A DNA stretch of 64,000 nt, taken from positions 1,302,001 to 1,366,000 of the forward strand of contig NZ_CP040948.1 of assembly GCF_006363955.1 (NCBI RefSeq), written 5' to 3'. The notes beneath the pieces are model-generated. The model ran no database searches and was not told the DNA's origin. It was given only the letters and a program-made list of their open reading frames with translations. The position numbers were made by a program, and so were the translations under genes. Positions within the stretch are counted from its first letter, which is position 1, and every line of letters starts with the position of its first letter. This document shows, one piece after another, positions 8,610 through 38,674 of the stretch. Origin of the DNA: Methylophilus medardicus (lineage in GTDB: Bacteria > Pseudomonadota > Gammaproteobacteria > Burkholderiales > Methylophilaceae).

Positions 8610-9128
8610 TTAAGCAAATTTTCTGCGAGCGATCAAACCAATAATACCCAAACCTGCCAACATCAGTGCATTTGATTCTGGCTCTGGTACTGGAATCACT
8701 GTTTCAGTGGCAGTAAAAGTCAGTTTGTTAGACAAAGTAACATTGAACGCGCCTGGGTTAAATTTAAACACATAGTCATCACCGGCAGCCAAATCCACGA
8801 ATGTGAATGTTGTGGTTGCATTTGCAATCAATGATGGGATACTGAAAGAAGTGATCTCTGTGTCTGCGCTGTCATACAGGCTAAAGCTAGAGCCTGCACT
8901 GATGCCCAACAAAGCTTTAAAATCAACAGTCACTGTTGAGTCTGCGCTCAAATCAAATTTATACAAATCAGGCAAAAAGAATGCGCCCACTTGCAACAAA
9001 GATTGGTTGGCGACTGGACCATCATTCAAATTACCTAAGTCAGTGACGTTTGTAGTAGCAAACGCTTGACTTGAAAAACTAACGGCAGAAATGAATGCAA
9101 TAGAACCTAATACATTAGATACTTTCAT
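8610..9128 (-). CDS. PEP-CTERM sorting-domain protein
   Basis: A 172-residue exported protein. It has a signal peptide (positive start MKVSNVLG, hydrophobic run, cleavage near SQAFA), a beta-rich body with little charge, and the C-terminal sorting signal VPEPESNALMLAGLGIIGLIARRKFA: a PEP motif, one membrane span, then basic residues. Such proteins are recognised by an exosortase, cut at the PEP motif and released to the extracellular matrix. The start chosen has AGGAGAAG five bases upstream; an upstream in-frame start has no such signal. It is the second of two co-directional PEP-CTERM genes and close to the eps sugar genes. Confidence 0.9.
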   Translation of the reverse strand: MKVSNVLGSIAFISAVSFSSQAFATTNVTDLGNLNDGPVANQSLLQVGAFFLPDLYKFDLSADSTVTVDFKALLGISAGSSFSLYDSADTEITSFSIPSLIANATTTFTFVDLAAGDDYVFKFNPGAFNVTLSNKLTFTATETVIPVPEPESNALMLAGLGIIGLIARRKFA

Positions 9129-9174
9129 ATCTTCTCCTCGATTAACAATTAACAAAAAAATTTACAACTTAAAA

Positions 9175-9651
9175 TTAGTGTGCTTTGCGCAATGAAACCA
9201 AACCGATCATCAACAGACCAACCATCAGCAAGATGCCTTTATCCGCTTCAGGTACTGGCGTCACCACATTGGCATTTAAAAAATATTGACCACCACTGAA
9301 ACCATCTACCGTGCCGGAAACCCTCAATTGGTATTTGCCTGGCGTCAAATTGAACGGTGATGTGATCAAATTATCTTCAGCATCATAAAAGCCATATTTA
9401 AACGTTTCATCAATGATGTTATACGTAGGCTCTTCAACTTCGCCAACCAGTATTGATAAAGAGACCGGCTCTTGTAAATCAAGATCGAATACATCGTTGA
9501 ATTCAAAGTTTGTTAACACATCAGCATCGCGATTCACCACAGTAGCCACGTTACCAAAGTTAAATACGTAATTTGCTGCATCCGCTTGGCTCATTAAGCT
9601 CAAGCTAGCAACCACAATCACAGATAAATTCTTTAATAAGCTTTTGAACAT
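9175..9651 (-). CDS. FxDxF-type PEP-CTERM protein with variant sorting signal
   Basis: A 158-residue exported protein. The signal peptide ends near SLMSQADA. The body contains FNDVFDLDL (the FxDxF motif) and the late PGKYQLRVSG...GGQYFLNANV pattern of FxDxF-family PEP-CTERM proteins. The sorting signal reads VPEADKGILLMVGLLMIGLVSLRKAH, so the second proline of the PEP motif is replaced by Ala, while the membrane span and basic end remain. The start is fixed by GAGGAGAAACAA directly before ATG. Only 46 bases separate it from the next PEP-CTERM gene, so the two are probably co-transcribed. Confidence 0.8.
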   Translation of the reverse strand: MFKSLLKNLSVIVVASLSLMSQADAANYVFNFGNVATVVNRDADVLTNFEFNDVFDLDLQEPVSLSILVGEVEEPTYNIIDETFKYGFYDAEDNLITSPFNLTPGKYQLRVSGTVDGFSGGQYFLNANVVTPVPEADKGILLMVGLLMIGLVSLRKAH

Positions 9652-9875
9652 TTGTTTCTCCTCAACACAGTAATTGTTGATCATCTTATTCGCTACTCGA
9701 GCCGTTTTATATAGCCCATTATGACCAATCAATTATGTAATTTAATTATGTACTAGCAAAAAACAGACCAGTTACAAATACTATTGCAATACATTGATTT
9801 TATTATGATTTATATTCAAAATAAGCCAGCAACATGCATAGAGATGAGTGATTTGCACCACTTTTTTTGACTTAG

Positions 9876-9891
9876 TGCGTGTAATGCACCA
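9876..9891 (-). promoter_or_regulatory. Possible sigma-54 promoter for the PEP-CTERM genes
   Basis: On the minus strand the site reads TGGTGCATTACACGCA, with the invariant GG and GC of sigma-54 promoters ten bases apart, but the flanks deviate from TGGCACG and TTGC. It would give a leader of about 215 bases to the first PEP-CTERM gene. The palindrome at 9940-9959 would lie about 85 bases upstream of the start, a normal distance for an enhancer-binding protein. Confidence 0.35.
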
Positions 9892-9939
9892 TTTAGATGC
9901 ATGCATTTTACAGGGCGTGAGAGGAAAATAGCAAAGGAA

Positions 9940-9960
9940 TTTGTCATAAATATGACAAAC
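9940..9960. promoter_or_regulatory. 20-bp palindrome, candidate activator site (element A, copy 1)
   Basis: TTTGTCATA-AA-TATGACAAA is a perfect inverted repeat with a two-base centre. Its core GTCA-N6-TGACAAAC recurs between epsL and epsB at 38576-38593, with 15 of 18 bases the same. A dimeric regulator of exopolysaccharide-linked genes is the simplest explanation. Confidence 0.5.
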
Positions 9961-19777: not shown

Positions 19778-20842
19778 TCAGACGTTAGACCCGTATTTTC
19801 TTCTCAATGCGATTGTCGGTTGTTCAATCACATAGTAAGAAACCAAGGTAGTTATGATGGTTAACCCCCAAAACCCAATTTGCCAGGCAAGCGAAAACTT
19901 ATTCAAACCGATTGCATACGAGATAAGTGTCATAGACAACCAATGTTGCAAATACAGCGAGTAGCTTAACTTGCCCACAAAAGTGAGTGGGCTTAACGCC
20001 AAAAAGCGTCTAATAGCGGCAAAAAAACTGGCCTGATTAAATAAGACATTCAGCAATATTAAAAAAAGCCCTACATTTTGTACGCTATATCTGAAGGTCT
20101 CTCTAAAAAACAGATCTCGCACCAATAGCGATAAGAGAATTGCAGCTAGTCCGAGCACAAAATAACCAAACTTGAGTAAGTGGCGCTCAAGCCACTCTTT
20201 TTGTACGGGCTTATGCATAAGACAAGCCATAAAACACCCGAACGCGATCGAATCAATCCTTGCCTCCGTAGCCGTGTACGTATAACCACCCTCATGCAGT
20301 AAGTCAGGGAAAATCAAGGCGTAGCCTAGTCTGATCAACAGCGGTAGAACTAAAAAAACCACGATGATTTGGTAATAGCGATTTGAGCGATAAGTAAACG
20401 CGAGCAGCGGCGCAAACAAAATATAAAAATGCTCTTCGATGGCAAGACTCCACAAAATATTAAATGGAGAGAGCAAACCATCTACATTAGAAAAATGGAT
20501 AAAAATTTTATAGTAGTTGGCAAAGTAAAATAATGCTGCTGAAATTTCTGACATCTTGATGGCGTGATTGATATAGAGAATCAATAGGCTCGAGATGATA
20601 ATGAAATAAATGGCTGGCGGGAGTAAGCGCCAAAACCGACGGATATAGAACTTTTTTAAATCTATATGCTGGTTTTTTTCGGCTTCGCTAATCAATAAAG
20701 AAGTAATTAAGTAGCCACTAATAAAAAAGAAGATCGTGACCCCAAAACCGCCGGGAACAATATGGCCGAAACCCGCATGAGAAATCATGACAAGTAATAT
20801 CGATAATGCCCTGATGCCATCTAGTTCTGGTGTGTATTTCAT
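19778..20842 (-). CDS. Acyltransferase family 3 membrane protein
   Basis: A 354-residue polytopic O-acyltransferase with ELDGIRALSILLVMISHAG at the N-terminus, FFFISGYLITSLL next, and LWSLAIEEHFYILF near residue 130, matching the OafA-like family. The sequence is visibly AT-rich compared with the flanking sugar genes, as often seen in variable exopolysaccharide decoration genes. It is the last gene of the long eps operon on this strand, with a 53-base gap to the preceding acyltransferase, and converges on the plus-strand acyltransferase. No terminator is evident in the 36-base convergent gap. Confidence 0.83.
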   Translation of the reverse strand: MKYTPELDGIRALSILLVMISHAGFGHIVPGGFGVTIFFFISGYLITSLLISEAEKNQHIDLKKFYIRRFWRLLPPAIYFIIISSLLILYINHAIKMSEISAALFYFANYYKIFIHFSNVDGLLSPFNILWSLAIEEHFYILFAPLLAFTYRSNRYYQIIVVFLVLPLLIRLGYALIFPDLLHEGGYTYTATEARIDSIAFGCFMACLMHKPVQKEWLERHLLKFGYFVLGLAAILLSLLVRDLFFRETFRYSVQNVGLFLILLNVLFNQASFFAAIRRFLALSPLTFVGKLSYSLYLQHWLSMTLISYAIGLNKFSLAWQIGFWGLTIITTLVSYYVIEQPTIALRRKYGSNV

Positions 20843-20895
20843 AAAGTGACTTCTTAGTTTGCTAAGTTAAGCGTTTATCCTCACACGCTACTTGG

Positions 20896-21999
20896 CTACA
20901 CTTTGACAAGTTTGCGTGATTTTTCGCGGAATGGACTTTCTATCAGTCGATACGTGATGTAACCGCTGATTAAGCAAGCCGCAATAAAGCCAATGGTAAG
21001 AATGACCGCCAAAGGGAACTCAAATTGCGGGATGGATAAGCCCTCAACAATCATTTCCGGCCGATGAAACAGTACTCTGATCACTTGTTGATAAAACCAA
21101 AGCACGAGTCCATGTGACATGTACAGGGAAAATGAAATGGTGCCCAACCAAACCAACGCCGGATGCGACAGAAAGTGCTTCCAAAAGTGGTCTCGTGACA
21201 ACAATATTGATGCAATCAGTAAGCAAGTTAAAGGATAAATCAGCACTTTAAGTGATTTGGTATCATGGCCAAACACCATAAACAAGCCAATCAACACAAA
21301 ACATAGCGGTATCCAATAGGGGCTCAGGCCCACAGAGGTTTTCACTTTGCTAATACCAAGCGCCAACATGCAGCCGATAAAAAAGCCAGCGATACATCTC
21401 AGCATAAAATCATGCTGCTCAGGATGGTAAATGAAGAGAATGGCAGTGGCTGATAAGCCCAGGGCCGCAAAAATATAATTTTTGAATTTTGCAAAGTTGA
21501 GCACAATCAAGCCAAAAATTAGATAAGTGTAAAACTCAGCGCTAATAGACCAAGCTGGACTGTTAAAAGTGATGGCCTGTTCGTTTGGCCAAAATGCTTT
21601 AATCATGAACACATCGCGCATAAACGCAGCTAGATTGTTTTGCTCGAAGGGTTGCTTGCTGAGGCTGGCAATGCCGAAATAATGCTGCAAAACATATTTC
21701 AATATTTCAATGCCCAGAAACAACACTAAAAAAAGTAGATGTACTGGGTATAAGCGACCAAATCGCAAAAACTGAAACTTTGCTAATTCGTAGGCTGTGG
21801 TGATTCGATTCGCATAAGCGGTATAAATGACAAAGCCTGATAGTACAAAAAACAAATCGACCATCATAAAACCACTACGAATGATTGAAATGTCATGGAT
21901 CAACGGGTTCCATGCTGGCACATGATATAAAACCACCAGTAAGGCAGCAATGCCGCGTAGGCTTTCTAGCTGATCAATCTTTTTTATAGTTTTACTCAT
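20896..21999 (-). CDS. Acyltransferase family 3 membrane protein
   Basis: A 367-residue multi-span O-acyltransferase with QLESLRGIAALLVVLYHVP and FFVLSGFVIYTAY near the N-terminus and SPAWSISAEFYTYL around residue 160, where the others have LWSLxIEE. This SISAEFY variant marks a different subgroup from the other two acyltransferases, so a different sugar position or acyl group is possible. The first ATG is used; the longer frame needs a TTG. It follows the glycosyltransferase gene in the eps operon. Confidence 0.83.
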   Translation of the reverse strand: MSKTIKKIDQLESLRGIAALLVVLYHVPAWNPLIHDISIIRSGFMMVDLFFVLSGFVIYTAYANRITTAYELAKFQFLRFGRLYPVHLLFLVLFLGIEILKYVLQHYFGIASLSKQPFEQNNLAAFMRDVFMIKAFWPNEQAITFNSPAWSISAEFYTYLIFGLIVLNFAKFKNYIFAALGLSATAILFIYHPEQHDFMLRCIAGFFIGCMLALGISKVKTSVGLSPYWIPLCFVLIGLFMVFGHDTKSLKVLIYPLTCLLIASILLSRDHFWKHFLSHPALVWLGTISFSLYMSHGLVLWFYQQVIRVLFHRPEMIVEGLSIPQFEFPLAVILTIGFIAACLISGYITYRLIESPFREKSRKLVKV

Positions 22000-22033
22000 T
22001 GATGTGTTTTGCAATTAAAAATAGAAAATCGCG

Positions 22034-23218
22034 CTAATCTCTTTTGGATTTAACCCATTCAATTTGACGGTTCACAAAAAACTTAGCATATAACTGGATT
22101 TTGCTGATTGCATATACCGGCGCATATGTCAGCAACTCAAAAAATGGCAGAATTTTGCTGCCATGCTTAAACCAAGAGATCATGACAAATGTAGATAACA
22201 GCAAAAATTGAATCACACCGTAGCCCCATGGGAAATAGGCATTTGTTGCAAGCATCAACCCCGCAGAGACCATCGCAAATAAGCCACTCAGCAAGAATAA
22301 TAAAGCGACTGGCGGTACGCATAGGTCTAGTGCCATGGCGATCATCTCGATATTTGCAGTGCGAATACCCTTAAACAATAAAGGTAGGCCTTCTTGCACA
22401 ATCATGCCGATATGACCGTGTTCCCATCTTTTACGTTGTGAGGCTGCGCCTTCATCATTCATCGGAAACTCGCTGGTCACATAAGCTTCAGGGCAAAATT
22501 TAGGCGCTAAATGTTGCTCTGCTAAATCGATACCCAACTTCATATCTTCGACAATATAGCCTTTGGCTAAGTTAGCCCCTTTCACATGCTGCCATGGGAA
22601 AGCCATGCCCGAACCCATCAGTTGCATGGGCATGCCTAAACGATGAAAACCTAAAGGCCGTGTCCAGCTTTTGACGACATAAGCGAACTCAGCGAGCTTG
22701 GTTTTCACCGGAGAATTTGGTTTGGCTTGAATTAAATAAAGTGCTTGCACAGCGCGTTTGCCTGTAACCACGGCTTGCACCAATGCATTAATGGTATCCG
22801 GATACACAATGCAATCGGCATCGAACACAATCATCACTTCTGGCGGGTTATTTCTTAAATATTGAATACCAAAGTCGAGTGCATAGCCTTTGCCACGTAA
22901 GGTCTCATGCGATCTCTCAATGACTTCAGCACCAAGTTGGCGCGCAATCTCTGCCGTATTGTCAGTGCAATTATCAGCAATGACTACAATTCTGGTATTT
23001 GGGGTGGCTGCTTTTTGAATAGAGGCTAACGTTTCGCTAATCCCGGCTGATTCGTTGTGCGCGGGAATCAACAATGCGACTGTTGCTGATTGTGCCTCAA
23101 CCTTTTGATTGCGGTAGCCAGGCAGTACCGCCACCAAAATCTGCAAACAAAAGGTCAATACTGGGATTGCCAGGATGGCAAGCAAAGTAAAAAAAAGCAC
23201 TTCAGCAACAATCAGCAT
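22034..23218 (-). CDS. Membrane-associated family 2 glycosyltransferase
   Basis: A 394-residue GT2 enzyme with an N-terminal membrane span, the donor-binding start VALLIPAHNESAGI, the metal DAD in IVFDADCIVYPD, and a QRKRWEHGHIGM stretch corresponding to the (Q/R)xxRW motif of processive synthases such as cellulose and hyaluronan synthases. Two or more C-terminal hydrophobic segments follow. It may add a backbone or side-chain sugar to the repeat unit at the inner membrane. It lies between the unknown secreted protein and two acyltransferases. Confidence 0.85.
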   Translation of the reverse strand: MLIVAEVLFFTLLAILAIPVLTFCLQILVAVLPGYRNQKVEAQSATVALLIPAHNESAGISETLASIQKAATPNTRIVVIADNCTDNTAEIARQLGAEVIERSHETLRGKGYALDFGIQYLRNNPPEVMIVFDADCIVYPDTINALVQAVVTGKRAVQALYLIQAKPNSPVKTKLAEFAYVVKSWTRPLGFHRLGMPMQLMGSGMAFPWQHVKGANLAKGYIVEDMKLGIDLAEQHLAPKFCPEAYVTSEFPMNDEGAASQRKRWEHGHIGMIVQEGLPLLFKGIRTANIEMIAMALDLCVPPVALLFLLSGLFAMVSAGLMLATNAYFPWGYGVIQFLLLSTFVMISWFKHGSKILPFFELLTYAPVYAISKIQLYAKFFVNRQIEWVKSKRD

Positions 23219-23256
23219 ACAGTCAACTTCTATCAGGTTAGGCCAACGACCAAAAT

Positions 23257-24678
23257 TTACTCAGTTACTCGGATTAATGTACCACTTACAGTAGAGCTTG
23301 CGCCGACTCCGCTGGTAACCACTACATTTGGTATGACGTCATCCGCAGGCCAAACAAATGTCCTTGATTTGCCGTTTACCAAGTCATAGGTGTCCACTCT
23401 GGTGCTATATCTTTTGTCTTTGAGGATTAATCTGAGTTTACCACCACCTGTGGTGACAGCAGTCAATTTATATTTATCGCCTTTCTTAGGCTTTGCCCAA
23501 GTGACTTTAGTGAGCGAGCGACCCGAAGGGTTTGACTGTACGACATTTGTAGTGGTTTGACCAAACACAATAGCCTGCTTCCAAGTATCAAATTTACCCG
23601 CAGATGGATCGTTTGGCGCACAAGCAGCGCGTTTATAGACGCACCAAGGGCCACGCATCGAAAGAATATTTAAATTCTTTTCGGGTATAAATGGATTACC
23701 TGATGCATCTACCCAAGATTTTGCTGAAGTTACCATACGCAATGACTGGCGGATTAAATGTAATTCATTAGCCGCCCTGTAGTTGTAACCATTTTTATGT
23801 AAATTCAAGCCGGAGCCGTTTTCAACATAAATAATAAATGGTGTACCGTCATTGGTATCAACGATATACGCACCATACACTTTCAAGGTGTTTACAATTT
23901 TGATCAATTCTGGTGTTTTAATCTTAGAAACATCAAAACTGTCAGGCAGCATCAGCAATGCACCCTCAGGAATTTTTCCTGTATTTGTCGGGGCATAGAC
24001 ATCTGCGGATGTCGCTGGATAAACATAGGCTGGATTTGCAGCTGCACCATTTAAGGCCAGTGACATAGCCAATGCGTGCGGATAGATAGGATCACTACTT
24101 GCGAACTCATTCTTACGGATGATGCCAGCGCATGCACCAATCCCAACAGCTCGAGCACCTTGATAATAATGTGCTGGATCTGCCCAACCTGTACCGTCAA
24201 TAGGCGACCACGCGTAAAGATTCGCCGTCCATTCACCATTGGTGTTTTTCAGCTTCCAGAACGAATGAATCACACCGCTGGCAGTGTCGTAAATATCGGC
24301 ATGACCATCCCCGCCAGAGGCAGGCACGAGATCTGCTGGCCAATGCGGTACTTCAATTTTTGGGTAATGAGTTTCTGCATCGGCATCGTAAACCCCTCTT
24401 TGACCAGGGTTAGGTTTCACGGTCACAGATCCACTTGTTTCATCTGCAAAAAAACAACCTGAGGATAAAATACCCTCGTGAATATTTGGATTGTATTTTG
24501 AAGTTGGAATAACAAAATCAGAGAAAGTTGGAGAAACTGGCTTACTTTTCCACAAAGAATTTACTGCAAACGGCTTTGTATAACGTGCTGTATCTGCTGC
24601 GTTTACATCTGCATTCAATGCAACCAATGCAAGCCAAGGTAAAGCAAGAAGACTGGTTTTATGAAAGGCTTTCATCAT
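23257..24678 (-). CDS. Secreted protein of unknown function in the eps operon
   Basis: I do not recognise a named family. The 473 residues begin with a signal peptide (MMKAFHKTSLLALPWLAL, cleavage near DVNA). A probable enzyme-like domain contains the ACAGIIRKNEF, PHALAMSLALNG, IPEGALLMLPDSFD and VYGAYIVDTNDG stretches in an order that recurs in some secreted actinobacterial proteins of unknown role. The C-terminal 110 residues look like a beta-sandwich module. Cysteines are few (SSGCFF, GACAG, PWCVYKRAAC). AAAGGAAT precedes the ATG. Its place among glycosyltransferases suggests a periplasmic or extracellular polysaccharide-acting role, such as lyase, hydrolase or binding; this is inference. 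Confidence 0.7.
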   Translation of the reverse strand: MMKAFHKTSLLALPWLALVALNADVNAADTARYTKPFAVNSLWKSKPVSPTFSDFVIPTSKYNPNIHEGILSSGCFFADETSGSVTVKPNPGQRGVYDADAETHYPKIEVPHWPADLVPASGGDGHADIYDTASGVIHSFWKLKNTNGEWTANLYAWSPIDGTGWADPAHYYQGARAVGIGACAGIIRKNEFASSDPIYPHALAMSLALNGAAANPAYVYPATSADVYAPTNTGKIPEGALLMLPDSFDVSKIKTPELIKIVNTLKVYGAYIVDTNDGTPFIIYVENGSGLNLHKNGYNYRAANELHLIRQSLRMVTSAKSWVDASGNPFIPEKNLNILSMRGPWCVYKRAACAPNDPSAGKFDTWKQAIVFGQTTTNVVQSNPSGRSLTKVTWAKPKKGDKYKLTAVTTGGGKLRLILKDKRYSTRVDTYDLVNGKSRTFVWPADDVIPNVVVTSGVGASSTVSGTLIRVTE

Positions 24679-26331
24679 TTATTCCTTTGTAGTCACACTT
24701 TGAGTTAAATGATCAGCAAGCCTTAATGCCAACGCAACAATGGTTAATGTCGGGTTAGCATGGCTATTCGTGGTAAACACGGATGCGCTAGCGATGTGCA
24801 GGTTTTTGACACCATGCACTTTGCAATTCACATCCACCACACTGTCATTCGGAGCGGTGCCCATACGGGTGGTACCCATATGATGGCCGCCAACGGGTAA
24901 AGCGTTCTCCATTGCCTTTTGTAATGCTTGAGGCTCAAATTCAAGCCTGCATGCTTTTGTCTTCTCAAATTGCTTTTGTAATAAATTAAAAGATTTAATA
25001 CCAGAGGCGATATCTTGTGCGGTCATTCTCCATTGAACGCTCACCCTTGGCATTCCAAATCGATCACATTCTTTTAGTAACTCGATTTGGTTGTTTACAT
25101 CTGAAACTTGCTCGCTATTAAACTCTATCGGATAGGTGCCATTACGGTTGGCAACCAAGGTGTAAGGGATACGCCGCTTAGCCAGTTTTATCTTAAACAA
25201 CCAGTTAAACGCAAAACCGATCACCGAACCAATATCCATCACCACATTCATGAGGTGTTTAATCGATTGACCACGCACAGCAGTTTGGTTCACGCCGTGA
25301 TTTAGAATCGCCTGATACTCAGGTTTTAAAATCGACTTAGCCAGAAAAATAGTCGACATCACACCACTACCATGCGAAGGATCCGCATACGCCGGAAAAT
25401 GTAACCGAAAGGCCGCGTTCAGTAAGCCATGTTCCGCTTGAAATTCAGATGAAAATTGCAGCTTACGCCGCGCGTAAATACCCTCAGTGGTTTTCTGAAA
25501 ATCAAATACAGGTAGCTCACCCTTAAAACGCAAAGCACCAAAAATTAGGTCGTAATGGCAGGCATAATATTTACCTAAGCTGGTATCCATCCACTGCCAA
25601 GCAGGTGTTTTTTGCCGCGTGACCAACATCAGCCGCGTCGATTCAATGCCCCCCCCTGCCAGCACCACCTGTTTCACTTTAACCTCAAGTGGCTGTTGGC
25701 CGTCATGCAGCGTGACTGATTCAACAACATCGCCAGCAGCACTGGTATTCAGGCTCACACAACGCGTGCGTAACAAAACCAGCACGTTGGTCGAGTCAGT
25801 TAACTCTTGGCGAAATTTTTTACCAAAATCGGTTGGCAGGCTGTAGCGCTCAATGTATTCGTTGAGTGCAGGCGCTAATAACGGCGCCTCGGTGAAAATA
25901 GGTTTTGTGTTTGGGCCAAAAGCGCTGATGGTGAAGTTATTTACACCAGCATCGCAATAATCCAAAGCTACATCGTAGTAGCTCGCAATCGCGCCAGCGC
26001 CCTCAGGCCAACCACTTTCGGGGACATGTGACCGTTTTGCAAAATCATGTGCATCAAGTGGTACACAGCGGCCGCCCCACAAATGGGTCGTTCCGCCAAA
26101 TCGTTGATATCTAAATTCGGTAGTTTGTGGATGCGGTGCTGTCGCCTCCCCCATGTAAGCATCGACAACCTCGGGCGTTTCATTCCAATCACCACCTTCA
26201 ATCAGTAGCACCCGCTGTCCAAGACGCGACAGTTTCACTGCGAGACTAATGCCAGAAGCACCTGCACCGATGACACAAACTGAGTAGGATTCCAGTTCGG
26301 AAAGTTTTGTATTGTGAAGATAACCGATCAT
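24679..26331 (-). CDS. GMC-family FAD-dependent oxidoreductase (second copy)
   Basis: A 550-residue flavoprotein closely parallel to the GMC gene on the opposite strand. It has SVCVIGAGASGISLAVKLS at the FAD site, FGGTTHLWGGRCVPLD, and the catalytic GGHHMGTTRMGT (His483-His484) and NSHANPTLTIVALALRLADH. No signal peptide is present. It lies directly between a glycosyltransferase (one-base gap) and the unknown secreted protein, so an exopolysaccharide role is likely, perhaps oxidation of a sugar hydroxyl to a keto or uronic form. The substrate cannot be read from sequence. Confidence 0.85.
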   Translation of the reverse strand: MIGYLHNTKLSELESYSVCVIGAGASGISLAVKLSRLGQRVLLIEGGDWNETPEVVDAYMGEATAPHPQTTEFRYQRFGGTTHLWGGRCVPLDAHDFAKRSHVPESGWPEGAGAIASYYDVALDYCDAGVNNFTISAFGPNTKPIFTEAPLLAPALNEYIERYSLPTDFGKKFRQELTDSTNVLVLLRTRCVSLNTSAAGDVVESVTLHDGQQPLEVKVKQVVLAGGGIESTRLMLVTRQKTPAWQWMDTSLGKYYACHYDLIFGALRFKGELPVFDFQKTTEGIYARRKLQFSSEFQAEHGLLNAAFRLHFPAYADPSHGSGVMSTIFLAKSILKPEYQAILNHGVNQTAVRGQSIKHLMNVVMDIGSVIGFAFNWLFKIKLAKRRIPYTLVANRNGTYPIEFNSEQVSDVNNQIELLKECDRFGMPRVSVQWRMTAQDIASGIKSFNLLQKQFEKTKACRLEFEPQALQKAMENALPVGGHHMGTTRMGTAPNDSVVDVNCKVHGVKNLHIASASVFTTNSHANPTLTIVALALRLADHLTQSVTTKE

Positions 26332-26332
26332 G

Positions 26333-27553
26333 TTAGCTTTGCAGTTGTTCCCTGATCAGATGTTCAAGCTTATTCACTTCAACTTTAAAATTAAAGTTAC
26401 TCTCAATTGTGTTGCGAGCAGCTGAACGGACGGTTTCACGTAATTCTGGTTGTGTGATGTAACATAAAATGGCACTTTTCAAAGCCACCTCATCGGATGG
26501 TGCAACAACCATGCCAGAAACACAATGCTCGATCAGTTCAGTCACCCCGCCTACATTGGTACCAATGACTGGCACACCGCAAGCCATGGCTTCCATCAAG
26601 GAGACAGGCACGCCTTCAGCAAAACTAGGCAGAATAAATACATCGCTATCCAGCAAAGTGTCGCGTACGGTTTCTTGGCTAGCAAAGCCCCCAAAATGGA
26701 CCATTTGTGTCAATCCATGTTGCTTCACCGCAGTTTCTAAAGCCGCACGCTCTGGACCATCGCCCAAAAGTGTCAAATGAAAGCGATGGCCTTCGTTTTT
26801 AAGCGCAATTAAACTACGCAATAACACTGGCACGCCCTTTTCGGCAGCCAGCCTGCCAACGTAAAGCAGTTTTACTGGTGTGTCAGCGGCTGCCTGTGTT
26901 TTGACTTGCGCATAGGGGTATTGATCGACATCTACACCGCAATGAACAATCTGTAATTTATGCCAATCTTCAGCATCAGAAAAAAGCATCATTTGACTGC
27001 GGCAATAGTTGCTAATACACACAATAAACTTGGCGTGTTTCACTTTTTCGCGAAGCGCCAACAAAGTCGGCTCGAAAAAAATATGCGGCCCATGAAAGGT
27101 GACGCTATAACCCACGCCACTCAACTGACTCGCAAGCATCGTCACCATGCCACTGCTATCCCCAAAATGATTGTGCACATGTTGCACATTATTCTGTTGC
27201 AGGTAGTTTGCTAGCAACAATGCCTCTTGAAAGTAAAAAAGCTGATACAGCGTACCTTTTACACCCGGTCGACGCGTTTTAAAAGCCAACTTTAGTGTTT
27301 TAAAGTAGCTGCAGGTCGCACTGAGCAAATACTTAACATTCAGTTGAATCAGCTTTAACGGGCTCGCGGGCAAAAAATAAGTGGTTTGTTTGCGCTCATT
27401 TAAAATCAAAGGACTCACGTTGTTGGCGCCCTCAGGCTGCCTGAGTGCACTCGTGAGCACCTCAACGCCTGAAGCTCTGAGTCCAATCACCTCGCGTTGG
27501 ATAAAGGTGTCAGTGGCGCGCGGGTAGCTGCTAGTAAAATAGGCAATTTGCAT
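26333..27553 (-). CDS. Family 4 glycosyltransferase
   Basis: A 406-residue GT4 retaining glycosyltransferase with the two-Rossmann (GT-B) layout. The C-terminal donor half shows KLLYVGRLAAEKGVPVLL, LLGDGPERAALE, VHFGGF and the E-x7-E motif in PSFAEGVPVSLMEAMACGVP. The N-terminal acceptor half contains VHNHFGDSSGM. It would add a hexose from a nucleotide sugar to the lipid-linked repeat unit in the cytoplasm. It follows the polymerase gene. Confidence 0.9.
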   Translation of the reverse strand: MQIAYFTSSYPRATDTFIQREVIGLRASGVEVLTSALRQPEGANNVSPLILNERKQTTYFLPASPLKLIQLNVKYLLSATCSYFKTLKLAFKTRRPGVKGTLYQLFYFQEALLLANYLQQNNVQHVHNHFGDSSGMVTMLASQLSGVGYSVTFHGPHIFFEPTLLALREKVKHAKFIVCISNYCRSQMMLFSDAEDWHKLQIVHCGVDVDQYPYAQVKTQAAADTPVKLLYVGRLAAEKGVPVLLRSLIALKNEGHRFHLTLLGDGPERAALETAVKQHGLTQMVHFGGFASQETVRDTLLDSDVFILPSFAEGVPVSLMEAMACGVPVIGTNVGGVTELIEHCVSGMVVAPSDEVALKSAILCYITQPELRETVRSAARNTIESNFNFKVEVNKLEHLIREQLQS

Positions 27554-27565
27554 CGTGAAAACTCT

Positions 27566-28981
27566 TTATTTGTTAGTCTGAATGACTTTATCAAGTGGTT
27601 TTTTCGTATCAAAAAGTCTAGCACCAGACAATGTCAGTCCGAGCGTAAACCACAAATACCAGTTAAAAACGAGATAATCGAGCAGGTTATCTGCATATCC
27701 CATAAAGGCAAATTCCATCAAGATCACAATGACTGTGAAAACAAGTAACTTATTGAATTGGTAAATACTTAGAAGCTTTTTCAATACTTGAAAAATCAAA
27801 TACAGAAACGCCAACAGGCCGAAAATCCCTAGCTCAAAGAACAATTGAACATAAATATTGTGGGCATTAATATCAAACTCCTGTTTTTCAAAGGCGTTTG
27901 CCATTGCAAAACTAGTTGAGTGGTGAATAAAACTATACAGGCCATACCCAGTTAAATAGTGAGATTTGGACATCCAAGCGATACTGTCTGACCAGATTTT
28001 CACCCGCCAAGCGTATGAGTTCAATCGACCATAACCGCTGGAGCCAAAATCGTTGTCACTGGTGAGATCTAAAACGCGTTCCTGCACCTCTGGAATCAAT
28101 AAGGCTAAAAATGGCGCCAAGATCACTATGAACAGGTATTTGCGCTCGTGTAGCAATGCATATAAAAAGAAGAAAAGATAACAAGCAACCCAACCTGACC
28201 GGGTTTTAGTCATAATCAACATACCAATGAGCAACAGTATGTAGAACGGTAACAATCTGCGAATAGTGGGGCCTATCGCGGTAATTTTTGATTTATAAAT
28301 ATAGAAGCAAATCGTGATCATCAACACCAAATAAGGTGCGAAAGGATTGGGGTGTGGGAACGTGCTCCTTAAACGGAATCCCTCTTGGTAGCTAAATGCC
28401 AAGCCTCTGCCACCAAATAAGATACAAAAAAGGCCATAAAGAATTGGGATAATGGATGACAGTGCGACTGCTTTAATCCACTTATCGAAATCTTTTTGTG
28501 AGTTCACAAGCCTCATACCCAGGAAAAACATGGAAGCATAGGAAACATAAATCAAAAAAACCTTAATGCTTTGAAGGGTGGCAGGTGAATAGGCCAGTGA
28601 CAAACAAGATAGCGTTAGAAAAATAACCCAAGCCTTTTTGATCCCTCTAACATCCTGCTGTAGAGGCTCATTTTTCTCAAAAAGAGTCAGGATGGCAATC
28701 AGTATCACTAAAGCATTTAAAACCGCACCAATACCGAAGCTGCCAAGTTTAATTGTGTTGAACACGACATCCAATGAAGATCTTGAGAGAATCACTAACA
28801 GAAAGAAAAAATAGCGGTCGAATACGAAAGTCAAACCAATGACGATGGCGACGGGCAAGCTGAGTAGATAGATATAATTCTCACCAACCAGCTGGGTCAG
28901 AAGTAAAGAAACCAATCCAAAAAATAATGCGGACAATGCTGCCAGCAAGATCAGCGATACTTTAGTGATATTCATATTCAT
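27566..28981 (-). CDS. O-antigen ligase/polymerase family (Wzy-like) membrane protein
   Basis: A 471-residue inner-membrane protein with about twelve hydrophobic segments and a periplasmic loop with the Wzy_C hallmarks, including MSKSHYLTGYGLYSF and INAHNIYVQLFFELGIFGLLAF, where the HN pair is characteristic. It would polymerise lipid-linked repeat units in the periplasm. The ATG at 28981 is chosen over an upstream GTG. It is AT-rich like other variable genes of the locus. Polymerase rather than ligase is inferred from the presence of Wzx, EpsE and EpsF in the same operon. Confidence 0.83.
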   Translation of the reverse strand: MNMNITKVSLILLAALSALFFGLVSLLLTQLVGENYIYLLSLPVAIVIGLTFVFDRYFFFLLVILSRSSLDVVFNTIKLGSFGIGAVLNALVILIAILTLFEKNEPLQQDVRGIKKAWVIFLTLSCLSLAYSPATLQSIKVFLIYVSYASMFFLGMRLVNSQKDFDKWIKAVALSSIIPILYGLFCILFGGRGLAFSYQEGFRLRSTFPHPNPFAPYLVLMITICFYIYKSKITAIGPTIRRLLPFYILLLIGMLIMTKTRSGWVACYLFFFLYALLHERKYLFIVILAPFLALLIPEVQERVLDLTSDNDFGSSGYGRLNSYAWRVKIWSDSIAWMSKSHYLTGYGLYSFIHHSTSFAMANAFEKQEFDINAHNIYVQLFFELGIFGLLAFLYLIFQVLKKLLSIYQFNKLLVFTVIVILMEFAFMGYADNLLDYLVFNWYLWFTLGLTLSGARLFDTKKPLDKVIQTNK

Positions 28982-29047
28982 CTTTGGCACGGTTTAACCA
29001 GACTTTTTCTCATTGAAACTAAGTGAATGAACTTTGAGCGAAACTTA

Positions 29048-29896
29048 TTAAGTTCTCAGTGTGGCCGCTAATAAAGTTAACAAGCCTTTTGGCCAAAAAC
29101 CTAATTTGATAAACTTGAGCCAATCTGAAAAATTGGGTCGATTGTTGTAGTAACGAGAGAACATCTGCAAAAACAGTTGTTGCGCATTTCGCTTTGAATC
29201 TTGGCAATGCTTGCTCACAAAGCGGCTATAGGCTTGCTCCAAACGGGCTCTGGATTTAATCGAAATTCTGTCGGTTCTCGGCGTGTCATCCATAATTTGA
29301 GTGGGAATATCGAGCAACGAAGCTTTACCGAATTTTTGTAAGACTCGAAAAAAGAACTCCATGTCCTGCCAAGCTGGCATGGCTTCATCGAACAATCCCG
29401 CCTCTATAAATGTGCTTTTTGGCGCAAAAATCTGATTTCCCACATGATTAAACTCAAACAACTGCTCATAACTGACGTTGCCTAATTTTTTCGATTGCGC
29501 AACCTCTTTGCCATCTCTGTAAATCAAATCCGGCGTGTATAAACAAGAAGGATGAATAGCATGTCTCTCTAAAAGCTGCCAATAATCGAGCATTAATGCC
29601 AGTCGATTGGGCAAAAACTCATCGTCATCATCCAACCCAGTAATAAACTCACCCGTGGCGCTTTTAATGGCCAGATTACGCGCGGCAGGCGCGCCTTCTG
29701 ACTGGGGCTTGATGAAGAATTTTAAGCGCGGATCAGCGGCTGATTTTTGCTGTAAGTATTGTTCGGTGTCATCGGTCGAGCCGTCACTGACAACAATCAC
29801 TTCAACATCTTGGTGCGTTTGGTTGAGTACAGAATCAACCGCCTTTTCTAATGCCTGTCTTCTATTTTTTGTTGGAATGTAAACAGAGATTCTCAT
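29048..29896 (-). CDS. Family 2 glycosyltransferase
   Basis: A 282-residue inverting GT-A glycosyltransferase with SVYIPTKNRRQALEKAVDS at the N-terminus, VIVVSDGSTDDTE at residues 34-46, and the metal-binding run GLDDDDEFLPN near residue 92. The acceptor region includes PAWQDMEFFFRVLQKFG. It is soluble or peripherally bound and adds one sugar to the repeat unit. It lies between the Wzx flippase gene (seven-base gap) and the polymerase gene. Confidence 0.9.
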   Translation of the reverse strand: MRISVYIPTKNRRQALEKAVDSVLNQTHQDVEVIVVSDGSTDDTEQYLQQKSAADPRLKFFIKPQSEGAPAARNLAIKSATGEFITGLDDDDEFLPNRLALMLDYWQLLERHAIHPSCLYTPDLIYRDGKEVAQSKKLGNVSYEQLFEFNHVGNQIFAPKSTFIEAGLFDEAMPAWQDMEFFFRVLQKFGKASLLDIPTQIMDDTPRTDRISIKSRARLEQAYSRFVSKHCQDSKRNAQQLFLQMFSRYYNNRPNFSDWLKFIKLGFWPKGLLTLLAATLRT

Positions 29897-29903
29897 GGTC
29901 GAT

Positions 29904-31334
29904 TCAATTCTTTCTGCTAAAAACTTTGCCTAAATATGACTTTATTAAGGATGGAAACAACACATAACTCACTAACAAATAAAACACGACACCAAAAGAA
30001 ATGGCGACGATAAAACTGACGGACATGCCCCAATGGCTATTTAATTGGGTGAAGGCATATCGGGTTGATAAGCACATTAAAAGCGCAACAACCGCTGGCT
30101 TCCATATGGATTTTAATAAATCAAGTGGGCTGCAGTGCACCAACTTACCCGCGCTGATGACTAACGGAACGCCTGTAATGACACTGGCATAAAAGTACCA
30201 CTCTGCGACGCCAGTGACCCCGTATGCAGCGCCTATGTAATAAGCGATGACATGGACTAACGCACTCGCCAACGAAAACCACATCAATAGGCGCGTTTTA
30301 GCTTGTGCCATAAACACAGTGCCGGTGGTGCTGGAAATCGACTGCACAAAACCCACCGGCGTGAGCCAAGCTAGCACCGTGGCGACTTGTATCCATTGGT
30401 GGCCAAAGGCGATTTCAACAAAGGGTTCGCGCAAGGCAAAAATGCCGGCCATGAGTGGCGCTGTTAAAAAAGCAATAAAAGTGATGGTTTGCAAATAAAG
30501 CTTACCCATTTCATCGAGTGCATTTTGCTGACGGCTCATCACCGGAAGCAATGCTCTTGAGGAAGCCCAGGTAATGTTTTGCACGGGTAACAACATCACT
30601 TTGTACGCCATTGAGTAGATCCCTAGCGAGGCGGCGCCTAATATGCGGCCGATGACCATGCTGTCGGCATTTCTAAAAAAATAAGTAATCAGCTGAAAGG
30701 CAGTCATGTGCCCGGTAAACGGTAATAACGTTTTCAGTTCTTGCCAGCTTGGTTTGCCTTGTGGCCGCCAACTTGAAACCATCCATAACTGCACTGACGA
30801 CAGCAAGGCCATGAGTATGGCTTGTAACACTAAACTGTATACCCCAGCGCCATAGAGGGCGGCAGCCACTGCAACCACCATGGCGATGAGTGAAGAAATC
30901 ACCTCAATAAACGCCAGTTTTTTAAATTTAGATTCTCGCTCGAGCAAGGCCTGATGTGAGATCGATGAGCTTGAGATCGGAAAAATTAGCGCCAATATGA
31001 CCAAAATAGCGATCAGCTCGTCATGCTTAAAATAGTCCGCGATGATGGGCGAGCACAGCGCGATCATCAACGCAATCACCACGCCCACCATGACGTTAAA
31101 CCAGAACACGGTGTTGATCGTGTGGTGGGTTAAGTCTTCTTTTTGAATAATTGCCGCCGACGTGCCTTGATCCCGAATCAATAATGCTAAATTGGTCACT
31201 ACTGTCGCCATGGCCATCAGACCATAATCACTGGGCGGCAAAATTCTTGCTAATACAAAGATATTGGCAAGTTGCGAAGTGATTCTAGCTATCTGGGAGA
31301 CGGCGACCCATTTAGCGTTTGAGACAGCAGACAT
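29904..31334 (-). CDS. Lipopolysaccharide/exopolysaccharide flippase (Wzx-like)
   Basis: A 476-residue polytopic protein of the polysaccharide-transport (PST/MATE-like) superfamily with about fourteen hydrophobic segments. The N-terminal SAVSNAKWVAVSQIARITSQ and LARILPPSDYGLMAMATVV are typical of the RfbX/WzxC group. It would flip the lipid-linked repeat unit to the periplasm for the Wzy-like polymerase. The gene follows epsI and is followed within seven bases by a glycosyltransferase gene. Confidence 0.88.
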   Translation of the reverse strand: MSAVSNAKWVAVSQIARITSQLANIFVLARILPPSDYGLMAMATVVTNLALLIRDQGTSAAIIQKEDLTHHTINTVFWFNVMVGVVIALMIALCSPIIADYFKHDELIAILVILALIFPISSSSISHQALLERESKFKKLAFIEVISSLIAMVVAVAAALYGAGVYSLVLQAILMALLSSVQLWMVSSWRPQGKPSWQELKTLLPFTGHMTAFQLITYFFRNADSMVIGRILGAASLGIYSMAYKVMLLPVQNITWASSRALLPVMSRQQNALDEMGKLYLQTITFIAFLTAPLMAGIFALREPFVEIAFGHQWIQVATVLAWLTPVGFVQSISSTTGTVFMAQAKTRLLMWFSLASALVHVIAYYIGAAYGVTGVAEWYFYASVITGVPLVISAGKLVHCSPLDLLKSIWKPAVVALLMCLSTRYAFTQLNSHWGMSVSFIVAISFGVVFYLLVSYVLFPSLIKSYLGKVFSRKN

Positions 31335-31352
31335 TCAGTGACAGTCTAATAT

Positions 31353-32069
31353 TTAGTTTGGTAAAAGTAAGCCTGGCGAGCGATTTTCTACTTGGCGGGC
31401 AAACTCTAAAAGAAACTTTTCATGCAAGGCGTAGGCCTCGGCACGCTTGCTTTCGTCTGCAATCGCAGAGGAAACACGCACTAAAATACCGTCATCTAAC
31501 CGACGATTTAATAATCCGTCTTCAATAATTTTTAAACGCATTTGTAAGCCGGAGGTCATGGTGCGGTCGCCTACCCGAATCCAGTAACTGACTGCCTCGA
31601 AATGATTTTGGCCTTGATACAACTGCCGTTTGCCGACAACGGGGCTGCTGCGCTTGAATCCATCAAACGTCACTGTTTCGCTTTTGAGTAACTGGTAGCC
31701 TTGGGCCGGATAGCAGATATCTGGTTGATGAATTTTGACGTCTTGCCGTTGCTCTTTGGCATAGGCCAATGCCACCATGACTTGATGCCCTGCTTGATCG
31801 GCATAGGTGCGCATTAAAGTGTCGTCGTATAACTCGTTGACCAGGCTTTTTTCATCACTGACAACACTGACTTGTGGGGTAGATTGTTGTACCTCTACCC
31901 AGCCATCGAGCACGCGAGGGATAGACCGCTCAAAATCACTGGCATGCGATGCGTAGTGATGATCCGGTTTAAGCAAGGTTGCCAAGCCAAAAAAGATGAT
32001 AGCCACAACCAACAAGGGCAAGCCTGTAGACAGGTTTACGTGCGGCAGCTTTAAGTATAAATCTTTCAT
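31353..32069 (-). CDS. epsI: EpsI, exosortase-associated protein
   Basis: A 238-residue protein with one N-terminal membrane segment (TGLPLLVVAIIFFGLATLL) and a periplasmic domain of the EpsI family. The domain includes QVMVALAYAKEQRQDVKIHQ and the conserved PDICYPAQGYQLLKSETV. In other bacteria EpsI is encoded next to, or fused to, the exosortase and assists exopolysaccharide production; its molecular role is unsettled. Here it begins eight bases after the exosortase gene, as expected for the pair. Length agrees with free-standing EpsI. Confidence 0.92.
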   Translation of the reverse strand: MKDLYLKLPHVNLSTGLPLLVVAIIFFGLATLLKPDHHYASHASDFERSIPRVLDGWVEVQQSTPQVSVVSDEKSLVNELYDDTLMRTYADQAGHQVMVALAYAKEQRQDVKIHQPDICYPAQGYQLLKSETVTFDGFKRSSPVVGKRQLYQGQNHFEAVSYWIRVGDRTMTSGLQMRLKIIEDGLLNRRLDDGILVRVSSAIADESKRAEAYALHEKFLLEFARQVENRSPGLLLPN

Positions 32070-32077
32070 AATGGACG

Positions 32078-32974
32078 TTACTCTTGGCTCAACAAGCTTT
32101 TCAACTTGAATTTTTCAGCGATTTTTTGAATCAGTGAATCGACGACGATGATCAACACCAGCGCTGTCAAGAAAAGCACCATGCCGGAGAAGTTATGCAA
32201 AAAGCCCTGCCCTGCTTCATCACCTAAGTGAAAGGTAATCAAGGCCAGCGTGCACACTCGTAATACGTTGGAAGTAAACGAAATTGGGACAATCAATATG
32301 GCCAGTAGCACATTGCGCCAGAACGCTTGGTGGTTAATCACGTTAATGTAGAGTAAGCCAATCGCCTCTAGCGTAAACAAAGAGTTCAGCCCAGCGCAGG
32401 CATCGGCAACCAACAGTTTGTATTGCCCGATTTGCAAAATCACCCCTGATCTGGCGATAGGATAATCCAGGGCATACAGCAAATGGTCAGCGGCGTATGA
32501 GACGGCGATTTTCATCGGCTGCGTCAAGGTATCGATCACCGAGGTTGGCCATGGGATCAAAAAGATGAAAAAGAACAGTGCAAACCAGTATTTAACGGCG
32601 GTTTTCGCGCCGAAAATAATGCAAATTAAGCCGCACAGAATAAACACGAGCGACAGAATAGAGATGATGTAAACGCTTTGTGAGTAGCCGACCACATATA
32701 GGCCACCCCCAAGGATCACCAATGGCCAGCCGAGGCCAGGGCTTGGTTTAAACGTCTGCGGTTTTTCTAAAATTTGTTTGGTTTTAAAATAAAAAAACCA
32801 AAGCCCGATTGCCAAGACAATCGGGCCATGCGATTGCGTGTCAGAGTTCCATACCGTCACAAACAAGTCATGAAACACCGGCACATACAAACACAACAGC
32901 GAGACTAAAACAGCCACATAGCCATAGACTTTTTGATTGGATGGCGGCAGGGCCGCAATAGTCGTCGCTGACAT
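32078..32974 (-). CDS. epsH: Exosortase B (EpsH)
   Basis: A 298-residue inner-membrane protease/transpeptidase with about eight membrane spans. It recognises PEP-CTERM signals and cleaves them. The catalytic triad of the family is complete: Cys193 in VADACAGLNSLFTLEA, Arg239 in SNVLRV, and His260 in GFLHNFSG. The immediate neighbours EpsG and EpsI and the overall gene set identify the XrtB type linked to EPS loci. Its likely substrates in this window are the two PEP-CTERM proteins at 8.6-9.7 kb, with more expected elsewhere in the genome. Confidence 0.94.
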   Translation of the reverse strand: MSATTIAALPPSNQKVYGYVAVLVSLLCLYVPVFHDLFVTVWNSDTQSHGPIVLAIGLWFFYFKTKQILEKPQTFKPSPGLGWPLVILGGGLYVVGYSQSVYIISILSLVFILCGLICIIFGAKTAVKYWFALFFFIFLIPWPTSVIDTLTQPMKIAVSYAADHLLYALDYPIARSGVILQIGQYKLLVADACAGLNSLFTLEAIGLLYINVINHQAFWRNVLLAILIVPISFTSNVLRVCTLALITFHLGDEAGQGFLHNFSGMVLFLTALVLIIVVDSLIQKIAEKFKLKSLLSQE

Positions 32975-32975
32975 A

Positions 32976-33842
32976 CTAGCTTGCGTTCAAGGCAATTTGC
33001 ACATCGATGCCCAAGCTACGGCATGCTTCGTAAGCCTGTTGGGTGTCACTGATTGTGGTTTGATTCTGCTGGGTTGAGATCAATACACCACCCACTTTTT
33101 TTGCGACGATTTGCGCATCAGACGACTGCAAAATCGGTGAGGTATCCATAATGATGACGTCGTAATGTTCACCGAATACTTTTAACAACTCATCCAAGGC
33201 CTCTTTGTTAAGCAGCTCTTGCGGGTTAGGAGGCGTGGCCCCTGCCGTGAGGATGCTTAAATTGAGCAATGATGGAATTCTCACCACAACATCAGTCGAG
33301 GCTCTGCCAACCAGAATGTCTGACAGACCGTGATGGTTGTTGAGCTTGAATAACTTGTGCTGCGAAGGTGCGCGCAGATTGGCATCAATCAGCAATGTAC
33401 GTTCGCCGAGTTGTGAGAACACAATCGCCAAGTTAGAGGCAAGCAAACTGGCACCATCGGCCTCGCGGGCAGATGACACGGCAATGGTTTTAAAACCACG
33501 CTCAAACCAGCGCAAAATCAGCTGGGTTCTGAGAGAACGCAGTGATTCGACTTGTTTAGAGAACGGATCAAATGCCGAAATCAAACTGGCATTGAACGAT
33601 GACTTGTCTGGGGAAATATAAGGGTAATCAAACTGATAAGACAAGGCTTGATTGATATCCTCGATGGAGACAAAACCGAGCGCCATGGCGGCTTCACCAA
33701 AACGCATCGATTTCTCTTTTTGAAACTTAAGGATGCGCTCAGCGTCTTTTTCGGTAATCTTTCCCATATCCAGCAACAGATGACCAATGCTGGAAGAAAC
33801 CGTTTTCATGGGCGTGTTGTTCTCTGATTCAATAATATTCAT
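32976..33842 (-). CDS. epsG: EpsG, BY-kinase-like chain-length protein with degenerate P-loop
   Basis: A 288-residue cytoplasmic protein. Residues 18-75 form an MshEN-like domain (IGHLLLDMGKITEKDAERIL), and residues 118-288 a MinD/BY-kinase fold. The fold is recognisable from SNLAIVFSQLGERTLLIDA and the late VIIMDTSP (Walker B). The P-loop reads SSAREADGAS, with Ala131 where the nucleotide-binding Lys (or Arg in many EpsG) is expected. Walker A' is LLIDANLR, with Asn155 in place of the second Asp. There is no C-terminal tyrosine cluster. It probably still pairs with EpsF, but kinase activity is doubtful. The ATG start is preferred over an upstream TTG. Confidence 0.88.
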   Translation of the reverse strand: MNIIESENNTPMKTVSSSIGHLLLDMGKITEKDAERILKFQKEKSMRFGEAAMALGFVSIEDINQALSYQFDYPYISPDKSSFNASLISAFDPFSKQVESLRSLRTQLILRWFERGFKTIAVSSAREADGASLLASNLAIVFSQLGERTLLIDANLRAPSQHKLFKLNNHHGLSDILVGRASTDVVVRIPSLLNLSILTAGATPPNPQELLNKEALDELLKVFGEHYDVIIMDTSPILQSSDAQIVAKKVGGVLISTQQNQTTISDTQQAYEACRSLGIDVQIALNAS

Positions 33843-33885
33843 ACGCAATCACTTTTGCCTGATAAATTGTTTTGGTAAGTCAACA

Positions 33886-35235: not shown

Positions 35236-35250
35236 GGTCAACCCTTTAAA

Positions 35251-36279: not shown

Positions 36280-36336
36280 AAGCAATGAACTCTTTTCGTA
36301 ACTTTGGATTTAAAGATTTGTATATTACGGCAACTT

Positions 36337-36347
36337 TTACGTAAAAT
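36337..36347 (-). promoter_or_regulatory. Element B, copy 2, upstream of epsE
   Basis: On the minus strand ATTTTACGTAA is followed by CGTAATATACA. TTTTAC and TATACA are 16 bases apart and could be -35 and -10 boxes of an epsE promoter. The first eleven bases equal the element upstream of the WecG-family gene. Confidence 0.35.
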
Positions 36348-36369
36348 TAATTCAGGGTAAACAGTTTAA

Positions 36370-37194: not shown

Positions 37195-37233
37195 TTACTT
37201 TCCAGTCATTAACACTGCTACCGCTCAAAATTA

Positions 37234-38436: not shown

Positions 38437-38575
38437 GTGTTATTAGCAATAGCAAATGATGTTATTTGAGTACATTCTAACCTGTAAACCTGCTTTTATT
38501 GCCACCAATACTTAACTTTTTAACTAGCACAATAATATTTATTTAATTAGTTTCCTAGTATAACCCTATTGGCGA

Positions 38576-38593
38576 GTCAGATTTATGACAAAC
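38576..38593. promoter_or_regulatory. Element A, copy 2, in the epsL/epsB divergent region
   Basis: The site reads GTCAGATTTATGACAAAC and matches the PEP-CTERM upstream palindrome in 15 of 18 bases, with the same GTCA-N6-TGAC spacing. It sits 140 bases upstream of epsL and 88 bases upstream of epsB, so one bound regulator could act on both. No sigma-54 pair with correct N10 spacing was found here. Confidence 0.5.
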
Positions 38594-38636
38594 CAGTCGC
38601 CAAGCCTCAGTCATTCGACGATTGCTGTTGAGCATT

Positions 38637-38674
38637 AATTTAGTTAAACTCAATTGAGTACATTGAACTAAATT
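38637..38674. repeat. Nested inverted repeats before the epsB start
   Basis: Outer arms AATTTAGTT and AACTAAATT enclose a perfect 12-bp palindrome ACTCAATTGAGT. The unit ends six bases before the epsB ATG, where no Shine-Dalgarno sequence is seen. It may be an operator, or an mRNA hairpin controlling epsB translation. Confidence 0.45.

Follow-up and report, generated by a model that had tools for sequence, protein, structure and literature searches.

Does one regulator couple the production of PEP-CTERM proteins to the export of exopolysaccharide in the methanol-eating bacterium Methylophilus medardicus? The question arises from two similar 18-bp sequences in the 64-kb window analysed here (the whole stretch of 64,000 nucleotides), one upstream of a pair of PEP-CTERM genes (site A, 9943-9960) and the other upstream of the exopolysaccharide gene epsL (site B, 38576-38593). 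The initial annotation had attributed both to a single regulator of an NtrC-like/sigma-54 system. Our comparisons point instead to phosphate control, and we give a probability of about one half to the reading that the element would be, at both places, a Pho box bound by PhoB, with the PEP-CTERM pair additionally under the control of NtrC and sigma-54.

The shared element and its chance level

Both copies are present as annotated, agree in 15 of 18 bases with GTCA-N6-TGAC in common, and are non-coding, each sitting between genes. Site A had also been described as part of a perfect 20-bp palindrome; positions 9940-9959 form only an 18/20 palindrome, TTTGTCATA-AA-TATGACAAA. The minus strand gives the better reading of the element, TTGTCATAAATCTGACTC at site B and TTGTCATATTTATGACAA at site A.

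As a string alone, the element is hardly above chance. With up to two mismatches, GTCA-N6-TGACAAAC gave 12 matches in the window versus 6.6 expected, a number reached in 4 of 100 shuffles, and with up to one mismatch it gave 25 matches in the whole genome (2,602,980 bp, one contig) versus 24 in the reversed control, so that the literal pattern showed no genome-wide enrichment, one of the outcomes that the initial annotation had set as counting against its proposal. Four of the genome matches are exact, the two besides sites A and B (105127 and 318113) lying inside open reading frames, and a phosphate porin's Pho box is among the 25. For the bare dyad GTCA-N6-TGAC the excess was modest, with 80 genome sites versus 44 in the reversed control.

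The weight of the element comes rather from its conservation in relatives, whose absence the initial annotation had named as a refutation and which is present within Methylophilus for both sites (site A in 7 genomes, site B in 15 of 17 gaps between epsL and its divergent neighbour). A fortuitous, non-functional likeness at one site or at both would fit the lack of enrichment of the literal pattern, but it is hard to reconcile with a conservation that exceeds permuted matrices and with a constant spacing to a −10-like hexamer (both described below), and we consider it very improbable.

A Pho-box matrix and the predicted eps/exosortase operon

The Pho boxes of Methylophilus pstS, the OprO/P porin and phoB, like those of E. 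coli, resemble sites A and B in having TGTCA-type repeats 11 bp apart that face the gene. In the available parts of two reports, the PhoB consensus consists of two copies of CTGTCAT separated by 4 nt (PMC4415409, PMC3131613), and site B read on the minus strand is close to it. A matrix was trained on boxes upstream of Methylophilus pstS (19 of 27 matches, incomplete, second and distant copies being dropped) and of the OprO/P porin (17 of 24 matches, weak ones being dropped), picked by agreement with a Pho consensus in at least 14 of its 16 positions. Boxes at this threshold were found in 17 of the 19 pstS and all 17 porin upstream regions, and the 15 distinct 18-mers among these 34 boxes made up the matrix, sites A and B being excluded. 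The phoB gene's own box, outside the training set, scored 22.8, and the plain Pho pattern with two mismatches gave 122 genome matches versus 69 in the control. In the window, sites B and A were the top two matches (14.7 each; next 13.6 and 12.1), and 3% of 2000 column-permuted matrices yielded at least two window matches as good.

This control preserves the relatedness among the compared sequences and was also applied to summed scores over sets of other sequences. The sums for two coding stretches were reached by 119 and 432 of 500 permuted matrices, that for the promoter of a second sugar transferase by 429, that for eps loci outside the genus by 70, and that for a PEP-CTERM paralogue, which was not flat, by 37.

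At the eps locus, the predicted Pho box TTGTCATAAATCTGACTC (38574-38591, minus strand) faces epsL and lies 11 bp from a predicted epsL −10 element, TATACT (38557-38562, minus strand), which is without a clear −35. Phosphorylated PhoB at site B would replace the −35 element. The Pho boxes of pstS and the porin are alike in lying 10-11 bp before a −10-like hexamer; the pattern [TC]A...T, a loose one picked after inspection, occurs 10 or 11 bp past the box in 34 of 34 training boxes and 15 of 15 site B orthologues. From epsL onwards, 16 collinear genes assigned by profile families (19778-38436, minus strand; gaps of 0-84 bp) form a predicted PhoB-driven operon that is headed by epsL and contains epsD, epsE, epsF, epsG, xrtB (exosortase B) and epsI, together with a flippase, glycosyltransferases and others; their co-transcription is presumed from this arrangement. 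XrtB-type eps clusters, for example that of Methylobacillus sp. 12S, have the same kind of gene set. The region had been annotated as lying between divergent epsL and epsB; the divergent gene (38681-40090, plus strand) reached only 213 of 393 bits on the EpsB_2 model and encodes a WcaJ-type undecaprenyl-phosphate glucose phosphotransferase (TIGR03023, 505 bits; cut-off 411). It is preceded by a probable sigma-70 promoter read from the sequence, TTGCTG-17-TAAACT (38622-38650, plus strand), that is similar in close relatives.

We collected 30 epsL loci, of which 17 have a divergent wcaJ gene across the gap, all of them from the same genus. Site B was found in 15 of these 17 gaps, 117-163 bp before epsL and on the epsL strand; in 14 of them the best matrix match coincides with it in position and strand, and in L010 it is a near-equal second; the Pho matrix found no site in the gaps of L016 and L017. 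Eight of the 17 gaps reached p<0.05 singly. The summed score of the 17 was 170.9 versus a maximum of 124.7 for 2000 permuted matrices, and when only the 8 closest gaps were summed, 3 of the 2000 did as well. In one relative, site B reads CTGTCAAAAAACTGTCAT and scores 21.0. The base that separates a direct repeat from a dyad was T in 11 of 15 orthologues, A in 3 and neither in 1 (L015 being read here in a different register than for the −10 spacing), favouring an 11-bp direct repeat of TGTCA type over a dyad. The second repeat is often weak, and at site B, unlike in known Pho boxes, it is degenerate. Outside this set of gaps, 19 loci yielded no convincing Pho box before epsL; among them, L027 and L028 are distant relatives of epsL within the genus, and L020 and L233 are one sequence, the Methylobacillus eps locus, which differs from the M. 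medardicus cluster in showing no Pho box upstream of epsL. In the M. medardicus gap, site B also lies inside a longer dyad, TTGGCGA...TCGCCAA (38569-38603), which was not seen in the gaps of the relatives compared.

In this genome PhoB scores above its profile cut-off, and phoB carries its own Pho box; a scan of the proteins next to phoB and pst recognised no cognate PhoR. Sites A and B score under every training box (range 19.5-26.3), as might be expected if both were bound by a single member of the OmpR/PhoB family that is not PhoB itself but recognises a similar half-site and responds to a different signal. Five further full-length PhoB-like regulators (161-190 bits) are encoded in the genome, and in Pseudomonas aeruginosa PhoB and TctD act at neighbouring sites, according to the available part of one study (PMC4513871). 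The register of site B and its −10 spacing nevertheless match those of the pstS and porin boxes, and we judge such a regulator improbable.

Site A and the candidate promoters of the PEP-CTERM pair

Site A is flanked by a phosphohexomutase-like gene on one side and by two FxDxF-type PEP-CTERM genes on the other, and stands 289 bp before the first start codon of the pair. The first gene (9175-9651, minus strand) encodes a PEP-CTERM-like protein scoring 44.5 bits on NF038126, below the cut-off of 50, whose C-terminal motif reads PEA in translation; the second (8610-9155, minus strand), which scores 49.7 bits on NF038126, just below 50, and exceeds the cut-off of PF07589, starts 19 bp downstream and likely shares its transcript. 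A stem resembling GGGCTATATAAAATAGCCC near the PEP-CTERM start codon (~9698-9718), clear in L062-L064 and weaker here, could be a leader hairpin.

The candidate Pho box at site A, TTGTCATATTTATGACAA (9941-9958, minus strand), is a near-dyad that scores 14.7 facing away from the genes and 12.0 facing them. Just downstream lies a candidate sigma-70 promoter, TTGCTA-18-TAAAAT (9905-9934, minus strand), with a spacing constant in 7 of 7 genomes (TAAAAT in 6 of 7, TTGCTA in 5 of 7). An alternative −10, TATTTT (9925-9930, minus strand), is 10 bp from site A, and [TC]A...T is found at that distance in 7 of 7; the second candidate −10, mostly TAAAAT and 30 bp from site A, is equally constant (7 of 7). 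In being also a dyad and in having a −35/−10 pair downstream, site A is unlike known Pho boxes.

The PEP-CTERM protein was matched in 17 of 22 Methylophilus genomes, and the comparison covered 12 upstream regions. M. medardicus and six close relatives share the position of the box. Five of these 7 give it a higher score in the orientation towards the genes, and in M. medardicus and L063 the opposite orientation scores higher; 5 of 7 keep the TGTCA...TGACA dyad. The summed matrix score for the 12 regions was 137.2 versus a maximum of 125.1 among 2000 permuted matrices; 7 of the 12 reached p<0.05 singly, and for the 5 distant regions alone 10 of 2000 permuted matrices did as well. Three species of a second clade have [CT]TGTCAAAAAAAATTCAC at the position of site A and a related half-site at epsL, one half-site being kept, and no convincing site A was found in L068 and L072 among the 12 regions. 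M. methylotrophus DSM 46235 has both the eps and the PEP-CTERM locus, its two sites being weaker. In L065, site A reads TTGTCACATTTCTTTCAA, a direct repeat close to the pstS box of the genus, TTGTCACATTTCTGTCAT. An inverted second copy of the box is found ~21 bp further upstream in L063, L064 and L066 and is not evident in this genome.

Downstream of site A lies an NtrC-type dyad, TGCATCTAAATGGTGCA (9885-9901, minus strand), that matches 11 of 12 positions of TGCACC-N5-GGTGCA, the only such score in the window. A weaker GGTGCA site follows 31 bp on (9854-9859, minus strand), and then a sigma-54-type promoter, TGGTCTGTTTTTTGCT (9755-9770, minus strand). The E. coli NtrC consensus is given as TGCACCAnnnTGGTGCA in the available part of one report (PMC8743547). 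Having three mismatches to TGGCAC-N5-TTGCW, the promoter was missed by a scan allowing up to two, which returned none at the site A or site B regions. TGG-N8-TTGCT precedes the PEP-CTERM pair in 12 of 12 orthologues, very diverged ones included, with 2-3 mismatches to the consensus, and the dyad retains 9-11 of 12 positions in 11 of 12 (8 in L072). In 11 of 12 orthologues the two are separated by 129-134 bp, the exception being L072; for L071 the position of the start codon is uncertain. Because shuffled half-sites matched the sum of the dyad scores in 5 of 500 trials, and because TGG-N8-TTGCT by itself has six occurrences in the window, this constant spacing bears most of the weight.

A similar layout is found at glnA, which in this genome adjoins ntrB and ntrC and has two NtrC-type dyads, matching 11 and 10 of 12 positions and spaced by 30 bp, and a sigma-54-like site. 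In E. coli and other enterics, the NtrC-sigma-54 promoter of glnA is part of a two-promoter layout. Both E. coli and Methylophilus glnA resemble the PEP-CTERM pair in having two NtrC-type sites ~30 bp apart followed by a sigma-54-type promoter, although the first dyad is 131 bp from the promoter at the pair versus 107 bp at glnA and the second dyad of the pair is weak. The NtrC profile was over cut-off in this genome, and NtrB is also present. Taken together, these features support a predicted NtrC/sigma-54 control of the PEP-CTERM pair.

The sigma-54 control proposed in the initial annotation is thus supported at one locus, where promoter and dyad lie 40-190 bp from the flagged element, and not at the eps operon, since none of the 17 epsL/wcaJ gaps has TGG-N8-TTGCT on the epsL strand (1 of 17 on the wcaJ strand). 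Nor is the 18-bp element itself the NtrC site, the dyad at 9885-9901 being another sequence. That the element is an NtrC-like/sigma-54 site of PrsK/PrsR type joining both loci, as first proposed, draws on the control of PEP-CTERM genes by such systems elsewhere; sigma-54 control of these genes is already known from the available parts of two reports (PMC1569441, PMC9850573). The PrsK/PrsR box of Haft 2006 and Aquincola pepA are like the present pair in having a sigma-54-type promoter before the PEP-CTERM gene, and the 103 nt from promoter to start codon fall within the range of 23-221 in the part of Haft 2006 consulted. The upstream motif described there, however, ends in TTTACA at an average of 63 nt from the promoter, whereas here an NtrC-type dyad is found and no protein exceeds the PrsR cut-off. 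The best match to PrsR (TIGR02915) reached 411.9 of 502.6 bits and scored higher on the AtoC and NtrC models, and PrsR was rejected as the regulator. With the eps gaps also lacking such a promoter before epsL, we regard a PrsK/PrsR site joining both loci as extremely unlikely.

The assignment of PhoB is weaker for site A than for site B because site A is also a dyad, and less confident because a sigma-54-type promoter was found at the same gene pair; PhoB at site A would be the weakest link of the model. These two features, the dyad kept in 5 of 7 and the strong NtrC/sigma-54 layout, favour a division of labour in which site B is a PhoB box, site A belongs to a dyad-binding regulator such as EpsA or a sigma-54-system factor, NtrC and sigma-54 run the PEP-CTERM pair, and no regulator is common to both loci. 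Two EpsA (LuxR-type) regulators are over cut-off, one of which (G000:C1:1949254-1950003; L267, L272) adjoins a PEP-CTERM gene, and we know of no defined EpsA binding site. Against such a division, the Pho-matrix score of site A summed over the orthologues exceeds that of each of the 2000 permuted matrices, the L065 site is a direct repeat near the pstS box, and both EpsA genes are far from the window; we consider it possible, if unlikely. A single regulator at both sites is plausible, since one independent matrix finds A and B and both are conserved in Methylophilus.

We scanned 30 PEP-CTERM loci of this genome, 29 over cut-off and one below; the second gene of the pair at site A is among them as L133, and fewer than 100 nt of upstream sequence were available for L127 and L134. 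A Pho box general to PEP-CTERM genes was rejected, 27 of the 30 loci scoring below 10; the exceptions are L140 (15.8, facing away), L123 (10.3) and L143 (11.1), both facing the gene. Sigma-54-like sites with up to two mismatches occur on the gene strand in 4 of 30 and on the other strand in 6 of 30, and NtrC dyads of at least 11 positions only at the site A gene pair. The Pho box and the NtrC layout are not general to the PEP-CTERM genes of this genome. A paralogue near 1,294,185 has a box-like sequence in this genome without conservation and was set aside.

Two further Pho-like sequences were observed. Repeats resembling a Pho box precede a phosphoglucomutase gene (G000:C1:1889983-1890009; L162), a possible link between sugar-nucleotide supply and phosphate control, and three TGTCA-type repeats 11 bp apart (G000:C1:955365-955391; L161) lie before a short open reading frame and point away from it.

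A predicted link between nutrient shortage and the exosortase matrix

The proposed mechanism starts from direct observations: the two sites and their conservation, the layout that site B has in common with pstS and the porin and the PEP-CTERM pair with glnA, and the PhoB and NtrC genes. From these we infer binding, activation, signals and operon structure. Low phosphate would lead to leftward transcription from site B through epsL-epsDEFG-xrtB-epsI and the glycosyltransferase genes, and PhoB at site A would help the adjacent sigma-70-type promoter to express the two PEP-CTERM proteins. Their second, downstream sigma-54 promoter would be driven by NtrC, whose predicted dyad appears to overlap the start of the upstream sigma-70-type promoter. 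Given the NtrC-type site and the sigma-54 promoter, the pair would also answer nitrogen shortage, and a shortage of nutrients with carbon to spare would result in a matrix being built. Exosortase B is presumed to handle these two PEP-CTERM proteins.

Parts of this scheme have precedents in other bacteria. In the available parts of the reports, PhoB controls EPS II in Sinorhizobium meliloti (PMC3131613), and PhoB and phosphate act on the exopolysaccharide genes rosR and pssA in Rhizobium leguminosarum (PMC4415409); these cases concern other polysaccharide systems, and exosortase and PEP-CTERM genes go unmentioned in the same parts. A Desulfovibrio response regulator binds PEP-CTERM promoters, according to the part consulted (PMC3333781). 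Within the literature searched, which was of partial coverage with subscription journals mostly outside it, no paper was found joining exosortases with a Pho box or PhoB, PEP-CTERM proteins with NtrC or nitrogen limitation, or PEP-CTERM proteins with phosphate starvation. PhoB control of exopolysaccharide is known in rhizobia, and what seems new here is the combination and the likely signals.

In a broader and more tentative interpretation, to which we give somewhat less than even odds, Methylophilus would build an exosortase-sorted matrix upon starvation, with PhoB acting on the eps/xrtB operon and the PEP-CTERM pair integrating phosphate, through site A, and nitrogen by means of a glnA-like double promoter. 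If this is true, limiting phosphate (and nitrogen) would be a simple way of inducing an exosortase B system in those Methylophilus that can be cultured, and among some 30 such genes a single PEP-CTERM pair would stand out as the likely partner of exosortase B.
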